A stretch of DNA of 64,000 nt from Roseivirga echinicomitans. GTDB taxonomy: Bacteria > Bacteroidota > Bacteroidia > Cytophagales > Cyclobacteriaceae. A program made the position numbers and the translations under genes. Below are positions 1,671-12,101 of the stretch, in pieces; the first letter of the stretch is position 1, and each line of letters opens with the position of its first letter. The notes under the pieces are model-generated. The model was not told the origin of the DNA. It searched no databases and worked only from the letters and a program-made list of their open reading frames with translations. Where the stretch lies: positions 620,001 to 684,000 of the forward strand of contig NZ_LRDB01000001.1 in NCBI RefSeq assembly GCF_001592935.1. The letters are read 5' to 3'.

Positions 1671-4331
1671 TTAATTTTTCAGTTTGATCAATGATTCCAC
1701 CGTGAAAGTGTCGCTCGTTCCTTCTTCCGAATTTTTGCCAACCATTACTCGGAACTTGCCCGCTTCAACTACACGCTCCATGTTCCTGTTCCAAAGGGAA
1801 AGGTCTTCAGGCTTTAAATCAAAACTTACACGTTTGCTTTCTCCAGCATTGAAGTGGATCCGTTGAAAACCTTTGAGTTCTTTTACTGCTGTGGTTACAG
1901 AGCTGATCAAGTCGCTTAGATAAAGCTGTACGACTTCTTCACCCGCTTGAGTTCCGTTGTTGGTCACCGTTACTTCGATGTGAATTGTTCCTTCTCCTTG
2001 ATTCGTAATCTGAAGGTCCTTATAATCGAAAGAGGTATAACTTAAACCGTAGCCAAAAGGGTAGAGGGGTGTAATTTTCTCATCGACATAGCGGTGGTTT
2101 CTGGTGGGTTTGGCACTGTAATACATTGGCAGTTGGCCAACACTACGAGCAACCGTAACAGGCAAACGACCCGCAGGATTGTAGTCTCCAAATAGGGTTT
2201 GTGCCACCGCTAAGCCTCCTTTTTCTCCAGGAAACCAAGCCTCTAAAATGGCAGGCACTTTCTGATCTAAACTGTTAATGGATAAGGGGCGACCGTTGAG
2301 CACAACACATACCACTGGGGTTCCAGTAGCAAGAATGGCGTCTACGAATTCCTTCTGAAGGCCATAGAGTTCTAGGCTGCTTACGTCTTTATTTTCTTCT
2401 ACTAGTTCATTCGATTCACCGACCACCACAATGGCGACATCTGATGATTTTGCCTGCGCGATCGCTTCCGTCAAATCTGGCTTTTGCATGTTCCAGTTGA
2501 GATAAGCTTTGGCGCCATAACCACCTTCCCATACGTCCATCCTGATTTTGTATTCCTTTCCTTTCACAAAATCCATTGGCGCAGTTTCGATGCTTGTCGC
2601 TCCTTTTTCCCAATTGTCAATCACCAGTTTGTCGTCTACCCAAAGCCTTACGCCATCATCGGAACTGACGGCTAACCATCCGCTAAATGATTGGTCTGGC
2701 TGAAGGTAGCCTTCCCATGTAACAGAGAAGTGATCTTCACCCACTCCTTCGCCCGGAGAGCCCGGCCATTCAAACGCGACTTGCTTGTCAATTCTAGTGA
2801 GCACAGGTTCGCCCTCTACATTTCTATTGTTGAAGAATGTGGCATTCAATCCGTTTTGCGATTTGTCTTTGGTTTTAAAGTTGGCCATCGGAATGGGTTG
2901 ACCTTTATAAATAAGGGGGACACCTTCGGAATACACTACTTCCGTATTCGCTCCGAGCAATTGCTTCACCCCTTCATAAACCGTGATGGCTTTTTTGTTT
3001 TTTACAGAATAGCCACCCAAAACGGACTCATTGGCCAATGGGCCAAGCACCGCGACCTTCTTTAAGTTTTTACTTAGGGGCAATAAATCACCTTCATTTT
3101 TGAGCAACACCATCGATTTCAAAGCTGCTTCTAAGGCCAGGTTTTGGTTTTCCTGACTGTGATTTCTTTCGTCAATAAGTCTTTGTTCTGTATATGGATT
3201 TTCAAACAAGCCCAACAAGAATTTCAATCTCAAAACCCCTGATACCGCTCTGTTCACTTTAGAAATATCAAGCGATCCTTCGTTCACCAATTCTATAATG
3301 GTTTGCTGAAATTCCTCATTTGGGAAATCGTAGAACTGCATGTCGATGCCCGCAGAAATGGCTTGCCGGATGGATTCTTTAGGAGAGTCGCTGGATTTGT
3401 GGCTGCTCTGCAAAAAGCGAATCGCGCCAAGGTCAGAAACCACGATGCCTTTAAAGCCCCATTCGTTTCGGAGCACTTCGGTCATCAGCCATTCATTCGA
3501 GGCATTGGGAATTCCATCAATTTCGGAGTAAGCGGCCATGGTGCCCAAAGCGCCTCCTTCCATAAATGCTTTTCTAAATACGGGAAGGTAATCCTGTCTT
3601 ACGGATCTTTCTCCCAACAAAACAGGGCCCGCATTTCCTCCCGCTTGTGGAGATCCGTGGGCGGCAAAATGTTTGGGTTCTGCTACCATCGAGCGGTCAG
3701 AACTCAAGTCTTTTCCTTGGATGCCTTTGATCAAGGCGGTACCAAGTTCGGCAGATAAGTAGGTGTCTTCTCCCAGTGTTTCTGCAATTCTTCCCCAGCG
3801 TGGTTCTCTGCCCAAATCGAGGTTGGGGCCTAAACCGAAATGTACGCCATGCGCCCGGCCTTCGGTGCCAATGACCTGCCCCACCTTTTCCATTAAGGCT
3901 TTGTCCCAAGTAGCGCCAAGGCCAATATTCATGGGGAAAGCAGTACTGCCCTCACCCATATAGCCGTGCAAAAACTCGGACATGAGTAATGCGGGAATTC
4001 CCCAGCGGTTATTCTTGATGATAAATTCTTGAAGTTGATTGGCTGCTTTGGCGTCTTTCGGATAGTAATCGTGTACCGCGCCTGCACCCAATTTTTCTCC
4101 GATCAATTCCTTGGCCAACGCGAGTGAAAAGGCTTCTCCTTCCTTAATATTTGCTCCGTTGTACATGTCCATCTGCCGTACCTTTTCTTCCAAACTCATT
4201 CTTGAAAGAAGGTCAGAAACCCTTTCTTCCACTGGAAGTTTGGCATTTTGGTATGGATATTTTTGGGCAAATAGTGATATGCCCACTACCTGGAAAAGTA
4301 TGATTAAACTGAAAATTCGCTTTTTGTACAT
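1671..4331 (-). CDS. GH3 beta-glucosidase with PA14 insert, secreted
   Basis: An exported glycoside hydrolase family 3 enzyme, expected to release beta-linked glucose (or a related sugar) from oligosaccharides in the periplasm. I take the start at 4331 because it gives a signal peptide (MYKKRIFSLIILF, then GISLFAQ); a start at 4391 would add 20 hydrophilic residues in front. In the short form the catalytic Asp is D300 in the VVSDLGA motif, a PA14 carbohydrate-binding insert spans roughly residues 492-620, and the C-terminus is a fibronectin-III-like domain. This order (GH3 N, GH3 C interrupted by PA14, FnIII) is common in Bacteroidota. It directly precedes lldD. It is cut off from the rest of the fucose operon by about 7.4 kb of opposite-strand cargo, so it may now need its own promoter. 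Substrate is inferred from family only. Confidence 0.88.
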   Translation of the reverse strand: MYKKRIFSLIILFQVVGISLFAQKYPYQNAKLPVEERVSDLLSRMSLEEKVRQMDMYNGANIKEGEAFSLALAKELIGEKLGAGAVHDYYPKDAKAANQLQEFIIKNNRWGIPALLMSEFLHGYMGEGSTAFPMNIGLGATWDKALMEKVGQVIGTEGRAHGVHFGLGPNLDLGREPRWGRIAETLGEDTYLSAELGTALIKGIQGKDLSSDRSMVAEPKHFAAHGSPQAGGNAGPVLLGERSVRQDYLPVFRKAFMEGGALGTMAAYSEIDGIPNASNEWLMTEVLRNEWGFKGIVVSDLGAIRFLQSSHKSSDSPKESIRQAISAGIDMQFYDFPNEEFQQTIIELVNEGSLDISKVNRAVSGVLRLKFLLGLFENPYTEQRLIDERNHSQENQNLALEAALKSMVLLKNEGDLLPLSKNLKKVAVLGPLANESVLGGYSVKNKKAITVYEGVKQLLGANTEVVYSEGVPLIYKGQPIPMANFKTKDKSQNGLNATFFNNRNVEGEPVLTRIDKQVAFEWPGSPGEGVGEDHFSVTWEGYLQPDQSFSGWLAVSSDDGVRLWVDDKLVIDNWEKGATSIETAPMDFVKGKEYKIRMDVWEGGYGAKAYLNWNMQKPDLTEAIAQAKSSDVAIVVVGESNELVEENKDVSSLELYGLQKEFVDAILATGTPVVCVVLNGRPLSINSLDQKVPAILEAWFPGEKGGLAVAQTLFGDYNPAGRLPVTVARSVGQLPMYYSAKPTRNHRYVDEKITPLYPFGYGLSYTSFDYKDLQITNQGEGTIHIEVTVTNNGTQAGEEVVQLYLSDLISSVTTAVKELKGFQRIHFNAGESKRVSFDLKPEDLSLWNRNMERVVEAGKFRVMVGKNSEEGTSDTFTVESLIKLKN

Positions 4332-4554
4332 TGGTTTTTTATTCTCGTAATTCAAAAAATTAGCCCTCCACTTTTCGCCTTCTTTTGCCATGGATAGGGC
4401 TTGCTGAAAGGGTCAATTTACGGAAATGAGTTGGGATATTTACTCGATGGTGGGTGCTCTGGTTTCCCGACAGTTTACTTCCCAGAATAAATGAATGAGG
4501 TGCATTAAAGATAGACGTGCTTCATAACAACCTCCGAGAGGCCTCACCCTTTTA

Positions 4555-4574
4555 TCCCTCTCCTTGGAGAGGGA
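4555..4574. repeat. polypyrimidine/polypurine hairpin
   Basis: A perfect 9-bp inverted repeat TCCCTCTCC-TT-GGAGAGGGA. Similar short CTCC/GGAG hairpins occur at 12132-12144, 57649-57669 and 57727-57744, so this looks like a member of a dispersed small repeat family. It is absent from the second copy of this flank. Confidence 0.55.
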
Positions 4575-4795
4575 CAGCACATTCTGCTAGGTTTTGCATA
4601 TGTACTCCAATCTTGCACGCTGTACCCTGTTTTCCACAGTGTACCTCGGGCATACAAGAATAAGAGATATGGCTTACCACTTGTAAATATTCTTCTAATT
4701 GTCTTTCTTTATTATAGAAAAACATGCCTTCAGCTTTCACTCATCGTGCTTTTCTTTTTTTGTAAAAAGTGCTTTTAGCATACCCTATTGGATTT

Positions 4796-4866
4796 GCTAA
4801 CCCTCACTTTTTGTAAACTATTAGAAATAAACGCCCATAAAAGTGAGCGTTATATAGTGTTAGGGG
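4796..4866. other. attC-like hairpin at left end of module B
   Basis: Nested inverted repeats: the outer pair is CTAAC (4797-4801) with GTTAG (4859-4863), the inner pair is CTCACTTTT (4803-4811) with AAAAGTGAG (4839-4847). The GTTAGGGGTG at 4859-4868 is matched by its reverse complement CACCCCTAAC at 6568-6577, after module B. This is the layout expected when an integron-type cassette begins at a GTT core. The arms are not a strict match to the canonical attC consensus, so this is a resemblance, not an identification. Confidence 0.45.
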
Positions 4867-4883
4867 TGATTAAATAAAAATCT

Positions 4884-5306
4884 ATGGAACGGGAAGAATA
4901 CATTAAATCAAGAGTTGATTTGGATTATTGTTTTTATGACAGTAGAGCGAAGCAATATCGAACCGCTCATTTAACATTTCGAATTTTAGTAGTCATGATT
5001 TCAGCATCAATCTCAGTAATCGCAAATGTAGAATTTGGCATTAAGAATGTTTTGCTTTCAATTTTAAGTTCTTCTGTAATTATTTTGGTAGGTATTTCTG
5101 AACTTATGAAGTTCCGAGAACAATGGATGGAATATAGAACTACTGCAGAAACAATAAAATCTGAAAAAATGCTTTTCCTTACCAATACAGGGCCATACTC
5201 TCAAGAGGGTAAGTTTAACTATTACGTTGAGAACCATGAAGCCATTGTCAAGTCTGAACACATAAATTGGAAAAATTTCTTTATCAAGAAAGATCATGGG
5301 CAATGA
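4884..5306 (+). CDS. SLATT-domain membrane protein
   Basis: A 140-residue protein with a short charged N-terminus, two close hydrophobic segments (about residues 30-48 and 52-72) and a C-terminal amphipathic helix region. This is the layout of SLATT domains, which are predicted to form membrane pores as effectors in nucleotide-signal-linked bacterial conflict systems (family knowledge). Its stop codon overlaps the start of the next gene by the sequence ATGA, so the two are translationally coupled. It lies in an AT-rich plus-strand insertion inside the minus-strand fucose locus. The prediction is that it damages the membrane when activated by its TIR-like partner. No experimental support can be read from the sequence. 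Confidence 0.7.
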   Translation: MEREEYIKSRVDLDYCFYDSRAKQYRTAHLTFRILVVMISASISVIANVEFGIKNVLLSILSSSVIILVGISELMKFREQWMEYRTTAETIKSEKMLFLTNTGPYSQEGKFNYYVENHEAIVKSEHINWKNFFIKKDHGQ

Positions 5307-6556
5307 GCAATTTTGAAACGGAATTTGGTAACAGAAGAATCGGGTTTCTAATAAGGAAATTTGAGGAACGTGATGATCGAAACACCCTTATTAAGACAGT
5401 AAGAGATTCTTTTCGTGAACGAGGATTGAAAATTGTTGATGCTAGTGAAAAGAACCTTCACTCAGAAACTTGGGGGAACATTAAACAATTCATGGATCAC
5501 TGTTCTTATGGCGTTGTTGTTATTGATAATTTTAGCCCAACAAATTCTGGCTTTAACCCCAATGTTTTTTTGGAGATAGGGTACCTACTGGCATTAAAAA
5601 AGGATATTCTGATCCTCATTCAAAATAGCTTAGCTGATAAACTCCCTACGGATATTAAACCTTTCCTTTATACCAGCTTTGATTCTCAGGAGATCCAATC
5701 GCCACAGTTGCGTCAAAAAATTATCAAGTGGATTGATAACACTGTCAATTACAATCCAGGATATTTGAGCGTATATTTAAAGGGTGAGATTGTCAGTGTC
5801 GATTTGATTTCCGAATTCAAAGAAGTGGTTTATGCCATTTCCGACTGTAACATAACAGAGAGTAGCAAACTAATAGCGCCAGATCAAAAGGAATTAGATG
5901 ATGAGTGTATCGATTGTCCAGATGGAGCGAGAAAAATAACATTTAGGACCCAAACCAAAAATATGGCTGATAAGCTAGTTGCAGATTATGAAAACAACTT
6001 CTATACGAATGTCCCTTTTCTTCATAATAGTTTATTAAAGATAAAGGCCAATTCAAGTGCAATTTCTGAAAGCTACGCTGATGGTGGAATTCACTACCTA
6101 TTTAATGATGAAAAGGAAGCTTTAATTTATTGCCAAAACCAGGGGATTGAGGGATGTAAGGATGAAGAACATTTCGCTTCAAGCAATTTCAAACTTAAGA
6201 AAACAAGCAATCATGATGAAATTGAAATATTTATCCTGCCAAAGTTTGACAACGAAAACACTTTTTTGTACATATCCAACTACCTTCAAAGCGAAAACAG
6301 ATTTTGTATAAAGATGTGTCATTATCCAAAAGATAATTCAAGAATTGTGGTGCCATTTCATGCCGTTGATATTTTATATCTAATAATATTTGGCGAACTA
6401 CCAGACCCTAAAAGACTTAAGATAAACTCAGACTATAGAAAAAGATATTTGGAAATTGTAGATTTACATTTAGATAAGGTGATTTACAATGTTGAAAATA
6501 GGATTGCTATTGAACCGGGAATTGCGAAAAATGTAAAATATTTTGATCACAAATAA
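5303..6556 (+). CDS. TIR / nucleoside-deoxyribosyltransferase-like protein with unknown C-terminal domain
   Basis: A 417-residue protein. The start at 5303 is chosen over the TTG at 5267 because its ATG overlaps the SLATT stop codon (ATGA). Residues ~10-155 look like a TIR/deoxyribosyltransferase-type Rossmann fold: a first strand IGFLIRKF, a central strand VVVID (71-75) and the motif NPNVFLEIG (85-93), whose Glu91 matches the expected catalytic acid. Such domains cleave or bind NAD or nucleotides in immune systems. The remaining ~260 residues are not recognised; they contain a Cys pair (DECIDCPDG) that could be structural. With SLATT it forms a probable two-gene defence unit: this protein could sense and make or cleave a nucleotide, and SLATT could act on the membrane. 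That role is inference. Confidence 0.62.
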   Translation: MSNFETEFGNRRIGFLIRKFEERDDRNTLIKTVRDSFRERGLKIVDASEKNLHSETWGNIKQFMDHCSYGVVVIDNFSPTNSGFNPNVFLEIGYLLALKKDILILIQNSLADKLPTDIKPFLYTSFDSQEIQSPQLRQKIIKWIDNTVNYNPGYLSVYLKGEIVSVDLISEFKEVVYAISDCNITESSKLIAPDQKELDDECIDCPDGARKITFRTQTKNMADKLVADYENNFYTNVPFLHNSLLKIKANSSAISESYADGGIHYLFNDEKEALIYCQNQGIEGCKDEEHFASSNFKLKKTSNHDEIEIFILPKFDNENTFLYISNYLQSENRFCIKMCHYPKDNSRIVVPFHAVDILYLIIFGELPDPKRLKINSDYRKRYLEIVDLHLDKVIYNVENRIAIEPGIAKNVKYFDHK

Positions 6557-6567
6557 ACTAGCTATAC

Positions 6568-6687
6568 CACCCCTAACAAATGCTAAAATGAATATGCGAA
6601 CTGATCCATTAGATACCATGGTGAGAGTTGGGAACTTCAGAGTATTTAGGAAATGGAGCACAGACTCAATTTAGCTAAACGTTGCCA
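6568..6687. other. attC-like recombination site at right end of module B
   Basis: This is the best attC-like structure in the window. It has an outer element CACCCCTAAC (6568-6577), a 4-nt spacer, an inner arm GCTAAAATGA (6582-6591), a ~74-nt central region, the complementary inner arm TCAATTTAGC (6666-6675; 9 of 10 paired), a 5-nt spacer, and GTTGCCA (6681-6687). Order, spacer lengths and total size (120 bp) fit the R''-L''-L'-R' plan of integron attC sites. The outer element is the reverse complement of the module's first bases at 4859-4868, as expected for a cassette. No integrase gene is in the window. Confidence 0.5.
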
Positions 6688-6691
6688 TAAC

Positions 6692-6768
6692 CTACAACTC
6701 AAAAACCTTCTCCATCAACATCCATTTTTCACCTGGCTTCGCGAAGGGTAAGGCTTGTTGATATTTCC
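6692..6768 (-). pseudogene. 3'-end fragment of the L-fucose/L-rhamnose-type mutarotase gene
   Basis: About 77 bp that nearly repeats the last ~25 codons and stop codon of the intact mutarotase gene at 11772-12101 (same reading frame, stop TAG at 6692-6694, a few substitutions). Similarity stops abruptly after 6768 and switches to the flank sequence otherwise found at 4414. It is therefore a chimeric junction left by recombination or tandem duplication, not a gene. Confidence 0.85.
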
Positions 6769-7181
6769 AATTTACTGAAATGAGTTGGAATATTTACTCA
6801 ATCGAGGGTGCTATGACTTTCCAATATTCGCTTCTGTTTTCCTGAATATCTTTCCGCATTAGAGAGGCTAGACTTTCTGACAATTTGCATTACCAATGCA
6901 AATGAATTGAGGATATAATTCCTTCGTAATAACATCGAAAGAGCCTCCCCCTTTTGTTCCCATGGCATACAGGAATCAGAGATGCGGCTTACCACTTGTA
7001 AATATTCTTCTAAATGTCTTTCTTTATTATAGAAAAACATGCCTTCCACTTTCACTCATCGTGCTTTTCTGGAAATTGTAAAAAGTGTTTAGCATACCCT
7101 ATTGGGTGTGCCAACGCTCACTTTTTGTAAACTATAGAAATATAACGTGCATAAAAGTGCGCATTATACAATGTTGTAGCC
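6766..7181. repeat. right copy (A') of the duplicated slot flank
   Basis: Diverged duplicate of 4414-4868, fused at its left edge to the mutarotase 3' fragment. It carries an 85-codon minus-strand frame (6798-7055) whose first ~30 residues match the shorter frame in the other copy. Similarity is strongest from about 6964 to 7150. Apart from this frame and the hairpin at 7109-7181 the ~520 bp before the next gene hold nothing I recognise. Confidence 0.75.
7109..7181. other. attC-like hairpin at left end of module D
   Basis: Nested elements TGCCAAC (7109-7115), inner arm GCTCACTTTT (7116-7125), complementary inner arm AAAAGTGCGC (7153-7162; 9 of 10) and GTTGTAGCC (7173-7181). It is the homologue of the hairpin at 4796-4866. 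GTTGTAGCC is matched by its exact reverse complement GGCTACAAC at 11637-11645, at the far end of module D; extending to 14 nt, 12 positions pair. Confidence 0.45.
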
Positions 7182-7203
7182 AATACAAGAAAAACCTCCG
7201 AGT

Positions 7204-8148
7204 ATGAACAAAAGTGCCATATATATATTCACATGCAATCGTACAATGGAACTCAAAAGGTTGCTTCATGAATTATATACTATTAAAATAAATTATGTTA
7301 TTTATATAATTGATGATTCTAATAATATAGAATATATTAAAAACAATATAATAAGTATAAACAAATATTCCAATGCTACATACCTGGGGGCAAGGCAATA
7401 CTGGGACTTTTACAGCATGAATGGAAAGTCTAACCATAGTCAATTATTGGGGGATGAGACTTGGAATTTAGGAATTGCTCGAAATTTTGCATTAGATCAT
7501 TCAACTCTTTTGGGGTATGAGAAAGTACTATTTGTTGATGACGACATATCAGGTATAGGTGAAAAAGTAATAGAAGTTGGGTTCGAATCGCTTATCGGAA
7601 ATTGTTTTGTTTCATGTAGTTTGAAAGGAGTTGAGGATGATTCGATTGTTGGTCATATCGCAAAGCAAGTAGGCGTTATTGTTGAAGGACCCAAAATGTT
7701 ATCTGGGGGGTTTTTGTTTTTATCACCATCTTCAATCACTCATAGATTTTACAACATTTATAATGAAGATTGGATATTGCAGCTTCTTGAAAAAGAAATG
7801 GAACAATTAATTATACCATATACTGTATTCCATAGTATGAATCAAGAGGTAGAATGGACTATTGATAAGGCCGTATTTCAAGAATTAGGGGAACTCGCCA
7901 TAAATGGTCTTTTTGAAAACTACCAAGCATTATCTATGGACTATTCCTTTTGGGGTAATGTACTAGCAAAAAGGATAAAATTTATTGAAAAAATAAATGA
8001 ACGTTCTCTGGATTTAAGAAATCATCATGGTCACAGAATTTGTATTAGACTTTTAGAATGGTTAAAGCAACTTGACGGGCATTCCCTTCAAAAATCTCTG
8101 GAACAAAAAAATTCGCATATGTATTTTTCCAAAAGCATTGAAAATTAA
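7204..8148 (+). CDS. GT-A-type glycosyltransferase-like protein
   Basis: A 314-residue soluble protein. The N-terminus has the alternating strand-helix pattern of GT-A glycosyltransferases (AIYIFTCNR, then YVIYIIDDS with Asp37/38), and FVDDDIS (D112-D114) is a good DXD-type metal/nucleotide-sugar site. A stretch GPKMLSGGFLFLS near residue 165 is typical of the acceptor side of such folds. I infer transfer of a sugar to an unknown acceptor; the exact family is not recognised. It is AT-rich compared with the fucose genes. It opens a five-gene plus-strand set with the acyltransferase, TIR-like, adenylation and carrier-protein genes, so it may glycosylate the product made by these enzymes. Confidence 0.55.
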   Translation: MNKSAIYIFTCNRTMELKRLLHELYTIKINYVIYIIDDSNNIEYIKNNIISINKYSNATYLGARQYWDFYSMNGKSNHSQLLGDETWNLGIARNFALDHSTLLGYEKVLFVDDDISGIGEKVIEVGFESLIGNCFVSCSLKGVEDDSIVGHIAKQVGVIVEGPKMLSGGFLFLSPSSITHRFYNIYNEDWILQLLEKEMEQLIIPYTVFHSMNQEVEWTIDKAVFQELGELAINGLFENYQALSMDYSFWGNVLAKRIKFIEKINERSLDLRNHHGHRICIRLLEWLKQLDGHSLQKSLEQKNSHMYFSKSIEN

Positions 8149-8160
8149 TAAAGCGACTAT

Positions 8161-8775
8161 ATGAAATCTTATAAATCAATAGGAACTGGGATTTTTGTTC
8201 ATAGCAAAGTGAAGATTGGTAAGAATGTCACAATTGGACAAGGTTCATGTATCGGCTTTGGTGACCCTAATGACGGTGACCTGATTATTGAGGATAATGT
8301 TCAGATTGGTGCCTTCTGTGTAATCCACTTTGGTGCGGTAATAAGAGATTCTGCATATATAGACCACAGGTGTGTTATTGGATTTGAAACTGAGATCGGG
8401 TGTAATACACAGATTCTTTCTGGAAAAGAAGTTGCTAGAAAATCAAAGATTGGCAAAAATTGCATCATTTGTGGAAATGTTGCAGACAGAACTATTATAG
8501 AAGATGATGTTACCTATCATGGGGAAATAGCTCATTCCCATAGAGATGCAAATCGCAATTGGGATGAAACGGAAGAGCCGTCACCTATCATTTATAGAGG
8601 TAGTGTAGTTGGGGTAAATGCCATAATAATTGGCCCCAGAAGAATTGGACCCTGTGCTTACATCGGTGCTGGTGAAATTGTTAAAACTGACATTGGTGAA
8701 GGAATAGCATTAATCATGGGCAAACAACAAACAGTAAAATCATTGAGAGGATTCATTAAACCAAGATGCAAATGA
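8161..8775 (+). CDS. left-handed beta-helix (hexapeptide) acyltransferase
   Basis: A 204-residue protein made almost wholly of hexapeptide repeats (for example VKIGKN VTIGQG, IIEDN VQIGAF, SKIGKN CIICGN). This is the signature of trimeric LbetaH acyltransferases, which move acetyl or other acyl groups from CoA or a carrier protein to sugars or amino groups. A loop with HSHRDANRNWDE (about residues 121-132) interrupts the coils and may carry the catalytic His. It follows the glycosyltransferase by 12 bp and overlaps the next gene, so it belongs to the same operon. A carrier protein in the same operon could supply its acyl or aminoacyl donor (inference). Confidence 0.75.
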   Translation: MKSYKSIGTGIFVHSKVKIGKNVTIGQGSCIGFGDPNDGDLIIEDNVQIGAFCVIHFGAVIRDSAYIDHRCVIGFETEIGCNTQILSGKEVARKSKIGKNCIICGNVADRTIIEDDVTYHGEIAHSHRDANRNWDETEEPSPIIYRGSVVGVNAIIIGPRRIGPCAYIGAGEIVKTDIGEGIALIMGKQQTVKSLRGFIKPRCK

Positions 8776-9947
8776 GAAAAAATCACACATCTATTAACGT
8801 TTTTGTATCCCATCCATTTAAACCTGATAATGGCGTTTATGATCTCGAAAAATTTCGAACTAATATAAAACTCCTGCTTGCTGAAGCAGAAAGCCTTGTT
8901 AGGAAAGAACATAATGATTTTGAACTAGACACTACATTTGAGTTTGTGGATTTCCAAAATAGATTGCCAACGCAAATAAAAAACAGTATAGCAAAAAGTC
9001 ACTTTGCATTAGTTGATGTAACCGAAAATAACCCCAATATATTTTTCGAATATGGATTAATGAAAGGTTTAAATATCCCGGCATTGCTGATCAAAACAAA
9101 CGAGTCATTTGGAAACTTTGATTTACCTGCCGACATGAAGGATGAAATTGCTGTTCGCTACGAAAATTTTGATGAGCTACGAAAAAAATGTCTCCATAAT
9201 ATAGTAGCCTTGTTTAAAGGATTATTAAAGAATGATTTCATTTATAAGAAGCTTATAGACAAAATTTGGTTTAATACTAACTCAGAGCCAAGGTTAAGTA
9301 TTGTTGTATCTTCAATTCAAAATATAGAAGAAAACACTGCTTCTGCAGCTGACTATTTATTCTTAGAAAACCTTGGTGACAAAGGAGCTTTACTAGATAT
9401 AATGACCTTTTTAAGTAGACTGTACCCTAATATAGAACCTTCTATTTCTCAAGCAACCGACTTTGATAATCATGAAGGTAATATTGTGGTTCTCGGTGGC
9501 CCAGGTGACGAAAGTGGTTACTGTAACAGTTTATGTGCGACCATGATGGAAAAAATAGACTCTAAATTCTCTTACTCGGAAGACTGTGAAGTTCTACTAC
9601 TTGATGGTAAGACATACAAAGCGCAGAAAAAAGATAATAGGATATCTATAGATTATGGTTATTTCGCTCGCTTCCCAAACCCATTTAACCCTAAGTATTC
9701 TGTTGTACTAATCCATGGAATACACACTTTTGGTGTGTGGGGTGCGGCAAAAGCGTTTTCGTACCATACAGTAGCTCATAAAAATGTGAAGACGGTCATG
9801 GAGAAGTTTAACCTCAATGATATAAATGACTCGGCATTTGAGTGTTTTTTTAAAGTTAAAATTCAAAATCTTCACAATAGTATTTCTAAGAGCTATGTGG
9901 AGTGTCCAAAGATTTCTAGTGAGGATATCTTTCCGTTGAAATTTTAA
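8766..9947 (+). CDS. TIR / deoxyribosyltransferase-like protein with novel C-terminal domain
   Basis: A 393-residue protein overlapping the preceding stop codon. ATG at 8766 or at 8772 (ATGA overlap) are both plausible starts. Residues ~8-150 form a TIR/NDT-like domain: INVFVSHPF, then FALVDVTENNPNIFFEYG (80-97), where Glu95 matches the catalytic acid of the family. This is the same type of motif as in the module B protein at 5303. The ~220-residue C-terminal part contains NIVVLGGPGDESG and YSVVLIHGIHTFGVWGAAKAF, which look like strand-loop-helix nucleotide-binding segments, but I cannot name the family. Sitting inside a biosynthetic operon is unusual for a TIR-like protein. It might be an immune effector guarding or using the product, or a nucleoside-modifying enzyme. 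Confidence 0.6.
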   Translation: MQMRKNHTSINVFVSHPFKPDNGVYDLEKFRTNIKLLLAEAESLVRKEHNDFELDTTFEFVDFQNRLPTQIKNSIAKSHFALVDVTENNPNIFFEYGLMKGLNIPALLIKTNESFGNFDLPADMKDEIAVRYENFDELRKKCLHNIVALFKGLLKNDFIYKKLIDKIWFNTNSEPRLSIVVSSIQNIEENTASAADYLFLENLGDKGALLDIMTFLSRLYPNIEPSISQATDFDNHEGNIVVLGGPGDESGYCNSLCATMMEKIDSKFSYSEDCEVLLLDGKTYKAQKKDNRISIDYGYFARFPNPFNPKYSVVLIHGIHTFGVWGAAKAFSYHTVAHKNVKTVMEKFNLNDINDSAFECFFKVKIQNLHNSISKSYVECPKISSEDIFPLKF

Positions 9948-9951
9948 TACT

Positions 9952-11397
9952 GTGAAAGATTCTATTGAACTTATAAAAGACAATGCAAAAAATTACCCCG
10001 ATCGCATTGCTGTAATTGACGGAAAGCGAAAAATCAGCTATGGTGATTTTATCATTCTTGTTAATTCTATTTCTCATCAATTGGGGCCACAATCCAAAAT
10101 TGTAATTGATTTAGATCAGGGAATAGAAGCGTATGCTTTAATAATTGCCATTCTTAATGTGGGTGGAACTTATTGTCCCCTTAGTACTGCCGCTCCTTTG
10201 GAGCGGAAAAAGCAGATAATAAATGAGTTTTCTCCTGACTTGATTGTTGTTTCATCAGAAGAAAAAGTTTTGGAGTTGAATCCAATTGACTCAATCACTT
10301 TTACAAGTTTACTTTCATATACAAACGATACTGATGTTGATATTTCTTACGATGGAGAAGATATTATTTATATTATCTACACATCTGGTTCAACGGGCAC
10401 CCCAAAAGGTGTGAGGGTTTGTCGTAAAGCGTTGAACAAATTTTTAGAATGGTCAATACCAACTTATGGAGCTAATGAAAATGACGTGTGGGGACAGTTT
10501 TCCTTTTTGAGTTTTGACTTGAGCATCGTAGATATTTTTACTTGTTTATGTTCTGGTGCTACTCTGTATTCAATGAACAATTTGTCCGCTAAGAAATTTC
10601 GCCCTGCCGGAGAAATAGAAAATCAAAAAATTACTGTTTGGCATTCAATACCAAGTGCTATAGAATTCATGATCAAAAATTTTCAAAGCAGAACTTACAA
10701 TTTTTCATCTCTGCGTTTGATGAGTTTTTGTGGTGAACCATTGAAGAAGCATCAGGTTGAATTTTTGTTGGAAAAGAATAATTCTCTGAGAATTTTCAAT
10801 ACGTACGGACCAACAGAAGGAACCTTGTTCTGTGCTTGGCAGGAGTTGAACGTTACAAATTATCTTGACCTTTCACTTTTTTCTATGAGCATCGGCAAAG
10901 GGATTCCGGGTTGGAGTCTCCAACTAAATGGTCTTGAGGAATTTGAAGAAAAGGAAATTACAATTTATGGCGACTTTATTGGAAAGGGATATTTGGGCAA
11001 CGTAGTTGATTCAAAATTCAAAGAAATCAATGTAGATGGACAATTGGTTGAAAGTTTTGAAACTGGTGATTTGGTGAATGAGGTAAAAGGGAACATTTAT
11101 TTCTCATGCCGTAAAGATAGGCAGGTCAAATTAAAGGGATACAGGGTAGAATTGGATGAAATTGATTTTAGGATAAATGAATACCTCAACTTGACTTCGG
11201 TTACTTTAGTAAATAATGAGATGCTTTATTCTTTCATTGAAACAACCGATGGGATCAATGATTCTGAATTAAGGAATCATTTGAAAACGGTATTAGAAGA
11301 ATATAAAATACCACATGGATTCTACCCAATTAAAGAAATTCCAAGAAGTCAAAATCAAAAGGTTGATTTTAACATGCTTAAGGGGAAAATAACATGA
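9952..11397 (+). CDS. stand-alone amino-acid adenylation enzyme (ANL superfamily)
   Basis: A 481-residue adenylation domain of the nonribosomal-peptide type, starting at GTG 4 bp after the previous stop. Visible core motifs: A3 YTSGSTGTPKG (143-153), A4 with FDLS where Asp189 is the residue that binds the substrate amino group (so an amino acid is the likely substrate), A5 NTYGPTEG, A7 ETGDL, A8 RKDRQVKLKGYRVELDEID, and A10 NQKVDF with the catalytic Lys. It should activate an amino acid with ATP and load it on the carrier protein encoded next, whose start overlaps its stop (ATGA). This resembles two-gene loading pairs such as DltA/DltC. There is no condensation or thioesterase domain. Confidence 0.85.
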   Translation: MKDSIELIKDNAKNYPDRIAVIDGKRKISYGDFIILVNSISHQLGPQSKIVIDLDQGIEAYALIIAILNVGGTYCPLSTAAPLERKKQIINEFSPDLIVVSSEEKVLELNPIDSITFTSLLSYTNDTDVDISYDGEDIIYIIYTSGSTGTPKGVRVCRKALNKFLEWSIPTYGANENDVWGQFSFLSFDLSIVDIFTCLCSGATLYSMNNLSAKKFRPAGEIENQKITVWHSIPSAIEFMIKNFQSRTYNFSSLRLMSFCGEPLKKHQVEFLLEKNNSLRIFNTYGPTEGTLFCAWQELNVTNYLDLSLFSMSIGKGIPGWSLQLNGLEEFEEKEITIYGDFIGKGYLGNVVDSKFKEINVDGQLVESFETGDLVNEVKGNIYFSCRKDRQVKLKGYRVELDEIDFRINEYLNLTSVTLVNNEMLYSFIETTDGINDSELRNHLKTVLEEYKIPHGFYPIKEIPRSQNQKVDFNMLKGKIT

Positions 11398-11654
11398 GCA
11401 AAAAATTAAAGCATCCAAAGGAGATTGTTGCAACAGCACTTAATATAAGCATTGACCAGCTTAACGAAGATTCAGCTTATGGAAAAACACCTAATTGGGA
11501 TAGCTTAAACCATGTTGCTATTATCAACGATTTAGAAACTAATTTTGAAATTCAAATTCCTGACTCAGAAATAGAAAATTATTTAACCATGAGGGCGATC
11601 ATTGAATTGTACGAAAAAATAAATAAGCACAGTACCGGCTACAACAAAGAATAA
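11394..11654 (+). CDS. acyl/peptidyl carrier protein
   Basis: An 86-residue carrier protein with the phosphopantetheine motif WDSLNHV; Ser37 is the expected attachment site. The helical pattern and the acidic surface after the Ser fit ACP/PCP domains. Its start overlaps the adenylation gene stop by 4 bp, so it is the obvious partner that receives the activated amino acid. No phosphopantetheinyl transferase is in the window. The last codons overlap the 9-bp element that marks the right end of the module. Confidence 0.87.
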   Translation: MSKKLKHPKEIVATALNISIDQLNEDSAYGKTPNWDSLNHVAIINDLETNFEIQIPDSEIENYLTMRAIIELYEKINKHSTGYNKE

Positions 11655-11771
11655 AAAACAAATGACCGATAAGGGTTTCAGCAAGTTTGGCACTCTCAAC
11701 AAACATCCAGCTGGGCTGATGGGAAAGTGCTCTGAATGCCCTGCTGTTTTTTCTACAAACGCTACAGAAAC
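11637..11771. other. right end of module D, degenerate attC-like region
   Basis: GGCTACAAC (11637-11645) is the exact reverse complement of the module's first bases (7173-7181). Further right, AAAAAACA (11653-11660) can pair with TGTTTTTT (11745-11752), and GCACTCTC (about 11690-11697) roughly pairs with GAAAGTGC (11723-11730). The point corresponding to the GTT at 6681 reads GCT here (11761-11763). It lies at the same distance from the mutarotase stop codon as in the first slot. The structure is weaker than at 6568-6687. Confidence 0.4.
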
Positions 11772-12101
11772 CTACAACTCAAAAACCCTTTCCATCAACA
11801 TCCATTTTTCTCCCGGCTGCGCGAAGGGTAAGGCTTGTTGATATTGCCACATCAGTGCTTCCCATGCTTGCACTTTAGGATTGGCCTGGTCCATTCTTCC
11901 TTTTTCATCAAATGAGAAATGATCTTCCGTTTCCATAATCATGCAAAGCCGATTACTAAGCAGGTAAATCTCCATTTTTAGAATACCCGAAACGCGAATG
12001 CTTTCAATGATTTCTGGCCATACCTTTTCATGATGGACTTTGTATTCCTCAATCAATTGAGGGTCATTTTTTAGGTCGAGTGTTAGACAGTATCTTTTCA
12101 T
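11772..12101 (-). CDS. L-fucose/L-rhamnose-type mutarotase
   Basis: A 109-residue RhaM/DUF718-type mutarotase, which interconverts the alpha and beta anomers of a deoxy-sugar. The first strand RYCLTLDL, the motif VHHEKVWPEI (candidate catalytic His) and the C-terminal GEKWMLMERVFEL are typical of the family. Located directly after the fucose permease gene, it most likely works on L-fucose. A 77-bp duplicate of its 3' end lies at 6692-6768. Next on the minus strand would be GH3, but module cargo now lies between. Confidence 0.85.
   Translation of the reverse strand: MKRYCLTLDLKNDPQLIEEYKVHHEKVWPEIIESIRVSGILKMEIYLLSNRLCMIMETEDHFSFDEKGRMDQANPKVQAWEALMWQYQQALPFAQPGEKWMLMERVFEL

Follow-up and report, generated by a model that had tools for sequence, protein, structure and literature searches.

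A tandem pair of putative integron-like cassette platforms beside rhaM in Roseivirga echinicomitans and a linked recombinase family without the IntI-specific patch

Introduction

Integron integrases (IntI) are characterised by an extra domain (PMC9668308), and this additional domain, or patch, is used for the recognition of integrons (PMC9024848). An older survey in which genes were selected by the patch found intI in the Bacteroidetes/Chlorobi group (PMC2426708), and IntegronFinder 2.0 reported a complete integron in Salinibacter, only In0 elements having been known in Bacteroidetes before (PMC9024848). A further survey described the insertion as "not fully conserved" in an "integron-like" subgroup of recombinases (PMC8138268), and an evolutionary discussion ties the integrases to Xer (PMC4792948). 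In Bacteroidales, recombinase-associated acquired interbacterial defence (rAID) arrays consist of a recombinase and short genes that share one orientation, with conserved motifs between the genes (PMC12247911, a preprint). These published arrays are the nearest precedent for the locus described here, a cargo slot in a cluster of sugar-use genes, between a GH3 glycosidase gene and the L-rhamnose mutarotase gene rhaM of Roseivirga echinicomitans, which lies in a stretch of 64,000 nucleotides (nt) of contig NZ_LRDB01000001.1 (C1:620001-684000 of the 4.18-Mb assembly, genome G000), hereafter the window.

The relation between R' and R'', by which the end of a cassette complements its start, is a known property of the attC sites of integron cassettes. 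Clusters of attC sites lacking integrases (CALINs) are common. The IntI additional domain is reportedly necessary for activity, a result said to go back to work by Messier and Roy in 2001. Among the literature matches listed (titles and the starts of abstracts, with few subscription journals), none described a patch-less integron in Bacteroidia, which does not prove that no such report exists.

Results

Two tandem putative platforms with one cassette-like module each

The slot is bordered on the left by the GH3 gene (1671..4391, minus strand; coordinates are window positions) and on the right by intact rhaM (11772..12101, minus strand). Between them, two modules of the same build stand in tandem. 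Flank A (4421..4790), composed of the blocks A-left and A-right around a variable middle, precedes a plus-strand hairpin that resembles an attI or attC site (platform 1, 4793..4868, core G4859|TT), and flank A' (6770..7106), with its own A-left and A-right, precedes a second such hairpin (platform 2, 7107..7182, plus strand, core G7173|TT). Against a covariance model built from twelve hairpin sites, these two included, platform 1 scored 81.6 bits (E 2e-15) and platform 2 scored 79.2 bits (E 7e-15). Platform 1 has a fold z of -2.7; the platform 2 hairpin alone did not fold better than shuffles.

The cargo-gene strand begins directly after the hairpin ending G|TT in both modules. Cassette B (4860..6681, plus strand) runs from 5' TTAGGGGTG to the G of AAACG. 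Its first ten bases from the core, GTTAGGGGTG, return as the reverse complement CACCCCTAAC just past the last gene (6568-6577, 10/10 positions), and this R'' lies in an attC-like site (6568..6681, plus strand) whose arms pair with p 0.03. Cassette D (7174..11761, plus strand, right end tentative) is large and multi-gene. Its 5' GTTGTAGCCA and 3' CGGCTACAAC are complementary at 9/10 positions, and the R'' GGCTACAAC of its attC-like site (11636..11761, plus strand) is complementary to the cassette 5' end GTTGTAGCC. Across nine hairpin copies, a first look found an R'' at the expected core in five, with at most one mismatch in ten.

The arms of the attC-like sites were analyzed jointly, in an aggregate test that replaced an underpowered site-by-site one and omitted L169 and L170, whose regions were truncated, and one further site short of sequence. 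Summed over 25 sites, they gave 115 against 76.5 (sd 8.3; z 4.6), a value reached by none of 200 shuffles and none of 24 rotations. Imperfect-palindrome attC arms are seen in aggregate only.

A family of hairpin sites in the genus

Covariation in the hairpin family is concentrated in the proximal stem, where 7/9 pairs had changed on both sides and none of 500 shuffles reached as high a value; the longer stem covaries more weakly. The covariance model returned 41 matches in 12/19 genomes of the genus, seven of them in this genome, and within the window it recovered both platforms plus a single weak match on the reverse strand. Platforms are scattered in this genus. We tested 31 of the 41 matches for a downstream 9-nt R'', allowing C or T at the core base; the ten omitted matches include the C49:27k site (L129), where an earlier look had found no exact R''. 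An R'' was present at 18/31 sites (16 strictly exact), where shuffled heads scored in the same way gave an expectation of 1.6, and at 8 of the 19 sites that had previously been unexamined. In addition, a recombinase gene or its C-terminal remnant lay 21-69 nt upstream of eight of the 31 sites.

A 30-base consensus pattern had no matches in the genome itself because the sites are too variable, and the covariance model was used instead. A looser pattern scan gave mostly chance matches and served only to spot the L141 and L143 sites, and a search of an E. coli collection returned no match. A possible Rfam RNA at the flanks was set aside, as only two sub-threshold matches were obtained.

A recombinase family associated with the sites

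The contig C2 of this genome encodes an intact 354-aa tyrosine recombinase (G000:C2), and a site core lies 99 nt past its stop codon. The core is followed by an HNH-endonuclease gene and then by an R'' and a palindromic site. The corresponding locus of G013 has the recombinase, the site and, by eye, three successive cassette starts, the first R'' containing mismatches that excluded it from the count below; in G011, a site and cassette lie behind a frameshifted recombinase gene.

Homologues of the recombinase (E 1e-60 or better) occurred in 106 of 291 genomes of an order-wide sample, this genome included. Inspected by eye, 30 order-level loci comprised 18 in which a hairpin with its G|TT core follows the stop codon, eight with an ssb gene and four with neither. 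We then counted exact 9-nt R'' copies downstream of recombinases at 33 loci (29 of these 30 plus L141, L143, L157 and L158) and found them for 14 of 72 candidate cores, with 1.3 expected; one of the 14, at L162, is off the hairpin. Twelve further loci from a search of the phylum yielded R'' at 7/23 candidates (0.06 expected), distributed over 7/12 loci. Where there was R'' evidence, the core lay 33-140 nt past the recombinase stop, an attI-like adjacency that is seen at recombinase loci and not at this slot. A control with Xer genes gave 0/16 candidates at eight loci, although it is weak, covering only 228-350 nt downstream. Within the same order and class, the recombinase is thus often, not always, followed by a site and a cassette.

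At the loci with ssb (L164, L165, L167, L173, L174, L184, L185 and L188), the recombinase frames span 545-609 aa and ssb lies within 60 nt; the call rests on reading open reading frames (ORFs) of the 120-aa type, one of the eight having been checked against Pfam. The recombinase-ssb pair may belong to a different mobile system.

On two further sequences, L248 (4840-4900, pHH1107) and L249, a truncated recombinase gene (tpnF) and tet(X3) flank a hairpin with a G|TT core that is similar to the sites described here. No R'' was found after the gene in L248 (up to two mismatches), and a cassette origin of tet(X3) is a lead only.

The recombinases lack the IntI-specific patch

The insertion that is specific to IntI appeared as a 37-column gap in all 43 aligned recombinases and was present in 7/7 canonical IntI proteins. 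Accordingly, in the best PDB match, IntI4 (2A3V), residues of about 214-246 have no counterpart. The G000:C2 recombinase scored 209.7 against a TIGR02249 cut-off of 265 and just passed NF040815 (XerA-type; 220.6 vs 220). The tree contained three separate groups, namely the patch-less recombinases (99/99), canonical IntI (100/99) and the Xer proteins of the genus (100/99). An earlier placement of the patch-less group as sister to IntI was dropped, since the tree, rooted on Xer by choice and carrying a long-branch warning from the program, shows only the separation of the three.

At the N-terminus, several of the recombinases have repeats that resemble HARP (24.8 bits vs 25; 22.0; 16.9) or DUF5710 (19.1 vs 26.5), in each case below the threshold. 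By eye, the motif occurs in one to three copies (e.g. L141:1876-2937, L173, L183); some short recombinases, L227 and L187 among them, lack it. Because HARP domains elsewhere are DNA-fork binders, we offer the guess that these N-termini might recognise folded sites.

These data bear on whether a canonical IntI, now absent or located elsewhere, moved the cassettes and left a CALIN, the patch-less recombinase being a bystander. Off-target insertion by a distant IntI has been proposed for CALIN formation (PMC8618304), and canonical IntI over the cut-off is frequent elsewhere in the phylum (105/395 sampled genomes). Its scarcity closer to the slot (1/295 sampled genomes of the class and 0/19 of the genus), together with the link between the patch-less gene and the sites across many genera, makes this origin improbable.

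The slot could also be one of homologous recombination alone, in which the flanks provide shared homology and cargo is swapped by double crossover, no site-specific enzyme being involved. Flanks are indeed shared at both junctions in G000, G004 and G006, and homology between rhaM 3' ends explains the tandem well. Left unexplained would be the 9-10 nt complements between the ends of each cargo, the complement pairs found at 18 of the 31 sites, almost all of them away from this slot, and the recombinase genes beside the same site; we consider it unlikely.

The slot in related genomes

We compared one genome per species. In G004 and G006, the same GH3 gene (94% identical over the 5' query), left flank and rhaM 3' end enclose other genes. 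The product is 178 aa long in G004 and 768 aa long in G006, and Pfam gave no match for either. A SLATT-like identity of the G004 cargo gene was considered and dropped, no Pfam family having been found in it. The A-right-like block of both genomes is 86-88% identical to A' and 81-82% to A. A rhaM 3' piece follows the cargo in each, and no intact rhaM was found in either genome. The G006 cargo starts with GTTGGCTGC, and the complement GCAGCCAAC stands immediately before the rhaM end.

G007 has GH3, A-left and part of the toxin-antitoxin insert described below; neither a rhaM piece (BLAST) nor a hairpin site (covariance model) was found at its slot. G008, G011 and G014 have neither slot nor GH3, and rhaM there overlaps the next gene of the operon. 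No strain with B only or D only was seen. The sequence-only reading had predicted other cargo at the same junctions in relatives, as G004 and G006 bear out. Its view of an accessory slot with exchangeable cargo holds in that the content varies between relatives; it had overlooked the cassette anatomy at the junctions.

Within flank A of G004 and G006, and not in this genome, we observed a ParE-family toxin gene preceded by a likely antitoxin ORF (L132 3776-4299; L131 8156-8470; the Pfam match is from the G004 copy).

Flank repeats, rhaM ends and the origin of the tandem

The tandem repeats of flank and mutarotase end described in the sequence-only reading are real, and both alignments reproduced them. 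Flank A and its surroundings match A' from 4367 to 4883 against 6721 to 7197, with identities of 75% at the GH3-proximal end (4367-4468), 91% over 4640-4755 and 76% over 4774-4883. The middles (about 4500-4640 vs 6830-6955) are dissimilar, so that the flank, first taken for one repeat, consists of two conserved end blocks and a variable middle. Within this genome, A-left (query 1-70) and A-right (query 258-470) are confined to the slot, and the last ~90 nt of the flank, comprising the hairpin, have three more copies on another contig (both at E 0.001) and five more when the covariance model is used. Occurrence at many unrelated places, named in the sequence-only reading as grounds for refuting its insertion slot, is a property of the hairpin part alone, where it is the expected behaviour of a recombination site.

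The 93 nt of rhaM 3' end at 6677-6769 share 88% identity with 11757-11849, and the fragment joined to A' (frag2, 6689..6769, minus strand) shares 75/81 positions with the intact end in local alignment. The GH3 start region (4349-4407), whose minus strand reads QQALSMAKEGEKW, is a further, degenerate rhaM 3' end. This piece (frag1, 4349..4421, minus strand), which abuts flank A, scored 31 against the intact 3' end, compared with a maximum of 27 among 500 mononucleotide shuffles, and is identical at 41/67 positions to the intact end and at 52/81 to frag2. The slot therefore has three rhaM 3' ends, not two, and rhaM 3' ends bound both sides of each cargo.

The first ~20 codons of the annotated GH3 ORF fall within frag1. 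This ORF has 906 aa here compared with 886 aa in G004 and G007, and since the 20 extra N-terminal residues (window 4331-4391) are encoded in rhaM-like DNA, its annotated start is probably wrong.

Three rhaM ends around two cargos could also reflect an integrating element that targets the rhaM 3' end and leaves direct-repeat copies, with two insertions accreting in tandem; retention of a rhaM piece in G004 and G006, where intact rhaM was not found, would fit. We regard such an element as very improbable: the repeats are degenerate (41/67 and 75/81 to the intact end) and do not form an exact att core, the cargo yielded no integrase, and the cores of the cassettes fall outside the rhaM repeats. 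An insertion-sequence or phage-type element was likewise rejected, as no transposase or integrase was found in the cargo and the recombinase search of the window was negative.

The sequence-only reading had proposed duplication, or recombination between strains with alternative cargo. The second of these fits the junctions, because frag2, rhaM-like on its left, joins A' where frag1 joins A; for the entry of the cargo itself, site-specific cassette insertion appears the likelier route, since the junctions carry G|TT cores, R'' complements and hairpin sites. Most likely, a slot with B and a slot with D crossed over, the rhaM end of the first with frag1 of the second, which would yield the observed order exactly. 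A-right and A'-right differ by 9%, compared with 6-7% for GH3 between species, suggesting that the two halves were long separated or came from different lineages; intergenic DNA may change faster than GH3.

For this last step, an empty platform may instead have been duplicated first, each copy later receiving its own cassette. The 75-91% identity of A and A' would allow such a duplication to be old, and the hairpin is kept in both platforms. None of the compared genomes, however, showed an empty platform, single or doubled, and frag2 resembles a rhaM/frag1 hybrid of the kind that a crossover of loaded alleles would leave. We treat this order of events as possible and the crossover as the better candidate.

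Cargo genes and a neighbouring repeat

Cassette B encodes a SLATT-type protein with two transmembrane segments (4884..5306, plus strand; DUF4231/SLATT_1, above cut-off) and a TIR-like protein (5303..6556, plus strand) with a weak PF10137 match below the cut-off. A defence role for this pair would be plausible. Cassette D, at ~4.6 kb and five genes, is very large for a cassette. Its genes, all on the plus strand, encode a possible glycosyltransferase (7204..8148; weak TAGT match, below cut-off), a hexapeptide-repeat transferase-type protein (8161..8775), a protein that weakly resembles a TIR effector model (8766..9947; PDLC00733, E 6e-4, no Pfam match), an AMP-binding (adenylation) enzyme (9952..11397) and an acyl-carrier protein (11394..11654; PF00550, 21.7 vs a cut-off of 20.8).

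Past the last gene of the operon, the window contains three copies of a 26-nt repeat (ATTCGGAAGTTTT units, 303-504).

Discussion

We propose, with a probability of about three in four, that the slot is the product of an integron-like system with a patch-less integrase. It would consist of two tandem copies of one docking platform beside the rhaM 3' end, each with one cassette. Cassettes would enter by site-specific recombination between the left hairpin site (core G|TT) and the cassette's own site, the enzyme most likely being the G000:C2 tyrosine recombinase acting in trans, and B-bearing and D-bearing slots would then have recombined via their repeated rhaM 3' ends to give the tandem. What can be read from the sequences are the cassette signatures, the site family, the linkage of recombinase and site, the absence of the patch and the change of cargo between relatives; movement of the cassettes by the recombinase, its action in trans at this slot and the above order of events are what we infer from them.

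Several observations weigh against this proposal. A search of the window (tblastn, E 0.01) and of the 700 nt upstream of each platform turned up neither a recombinase gene nor a remnant of one, and action in trans is therefore assumed. Thirteen of the 31 tested sites gave no R'' match, most of these having only 1.5 kb of sequence available, and the match at G006:C44, one of the 18, may be due to chance because its context differs from that of the other sites. By eye, the slot cassette of G004 has no R'' near the rhaM end. The attC arms of cassette D pair weakly (p 0.57), single-strand folds of the B and D attC sites did not beat shuffles, and arms reached p 0.05 individually in just 4 of 26 tests. 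Twelve of the 30 order-level recombinases lack a recognisable site after them, eight of the twelve being followed by ssb. Finally, the divergence between A and A' is about that seen between species in these flanks, and an old duplication would fit this as well.

We lean, by a small margin of belief, towards a broader interpretation, in which Bacteroidia would have a widespread, separate integron lineage whose integrase either never had or has lost the "essential" patch, in which the HARP/DUF5710-like repeats may serve the recognition of folded sites, and in which cassettes sit on many small, dispersed platforms instead of in a single long array, this slot and the rAID arrays being among the products. 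If this is true, surveys that rely on the IntI additional domain miss integrons in this class. It would also provide a form of the sort considered in discussions of how integrases evolved from Xer-like ancestors (PMC4792948), and a single mechanism would account for such different genes being swapped at the same junctions.

What the proposed system has in common with rAID arrays is a tyrosine recombinase with short genes in one orientation, and conserved intergenic motifs, behind it. The slot itself differs in that its cargo is SLATT/TIR-like and biosynthetic instead of immunity genes and in that no recombinase was found in the window; the complement pairs of the single array inspected were short (runs of 8-9), and the text of PMC12247911 does not contain the word "integron". 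On a Parabacteroides distasonis plasmid (L252, 3755-8852), a patch-less recombinase precedes a row of Tdi1- and SUKH/SMI1-KNR4-type genes; this recombinase belongs to the patch-less group, so that rAID-like arrays and the cassette system share a recombinase group. On a Rufibacter plasmid (L251, 5117-9113), a recombinase is followed by short co-oriented genes, the first of which has an R'' complement run of 10.

Like a CALIN, the slot has cassettes with attC-like sites, two in the window, and no integrase nearby (none found by tblastn, E 0.01). Unlike a CALIN, it has one hairpin platform per cassette and a rhaM fragment between them, and recombinases of the linked patch-less family are present at other loci. 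The G000:C2 protein resembles XerA-type recombinases in scoring just over the model cut-off (NF040815), whereas its linkage to cassette sites and its separation from the Xer proteins of the genus set it apart from these and from the "integron-like" fringe.

The system can also be compared with sedentary chromosomal integrons. Both have co-oriented cassettes, 5' ends of the G|TTRRRY type, an R'' that complements the 5' end of its own cassette and, in aggregate, imperfect-palindrome sites; at other loci, a tyrosine recombinase stands beside the first site. The recombinase here, by contrast, lacks the IntI additional domain and falls below the TIGR02249 cut-off, many of its relatives have an extra N-terminal part, the site lies past the recombinase stop codon, and platforms are scattered in the genus. 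By the usual definition this is not an integron, the IntI additional domain being missing. Apart from that absent patch and the attC arms seen in aggregate only, the system is integron-like in most features that can be tested from sequence.

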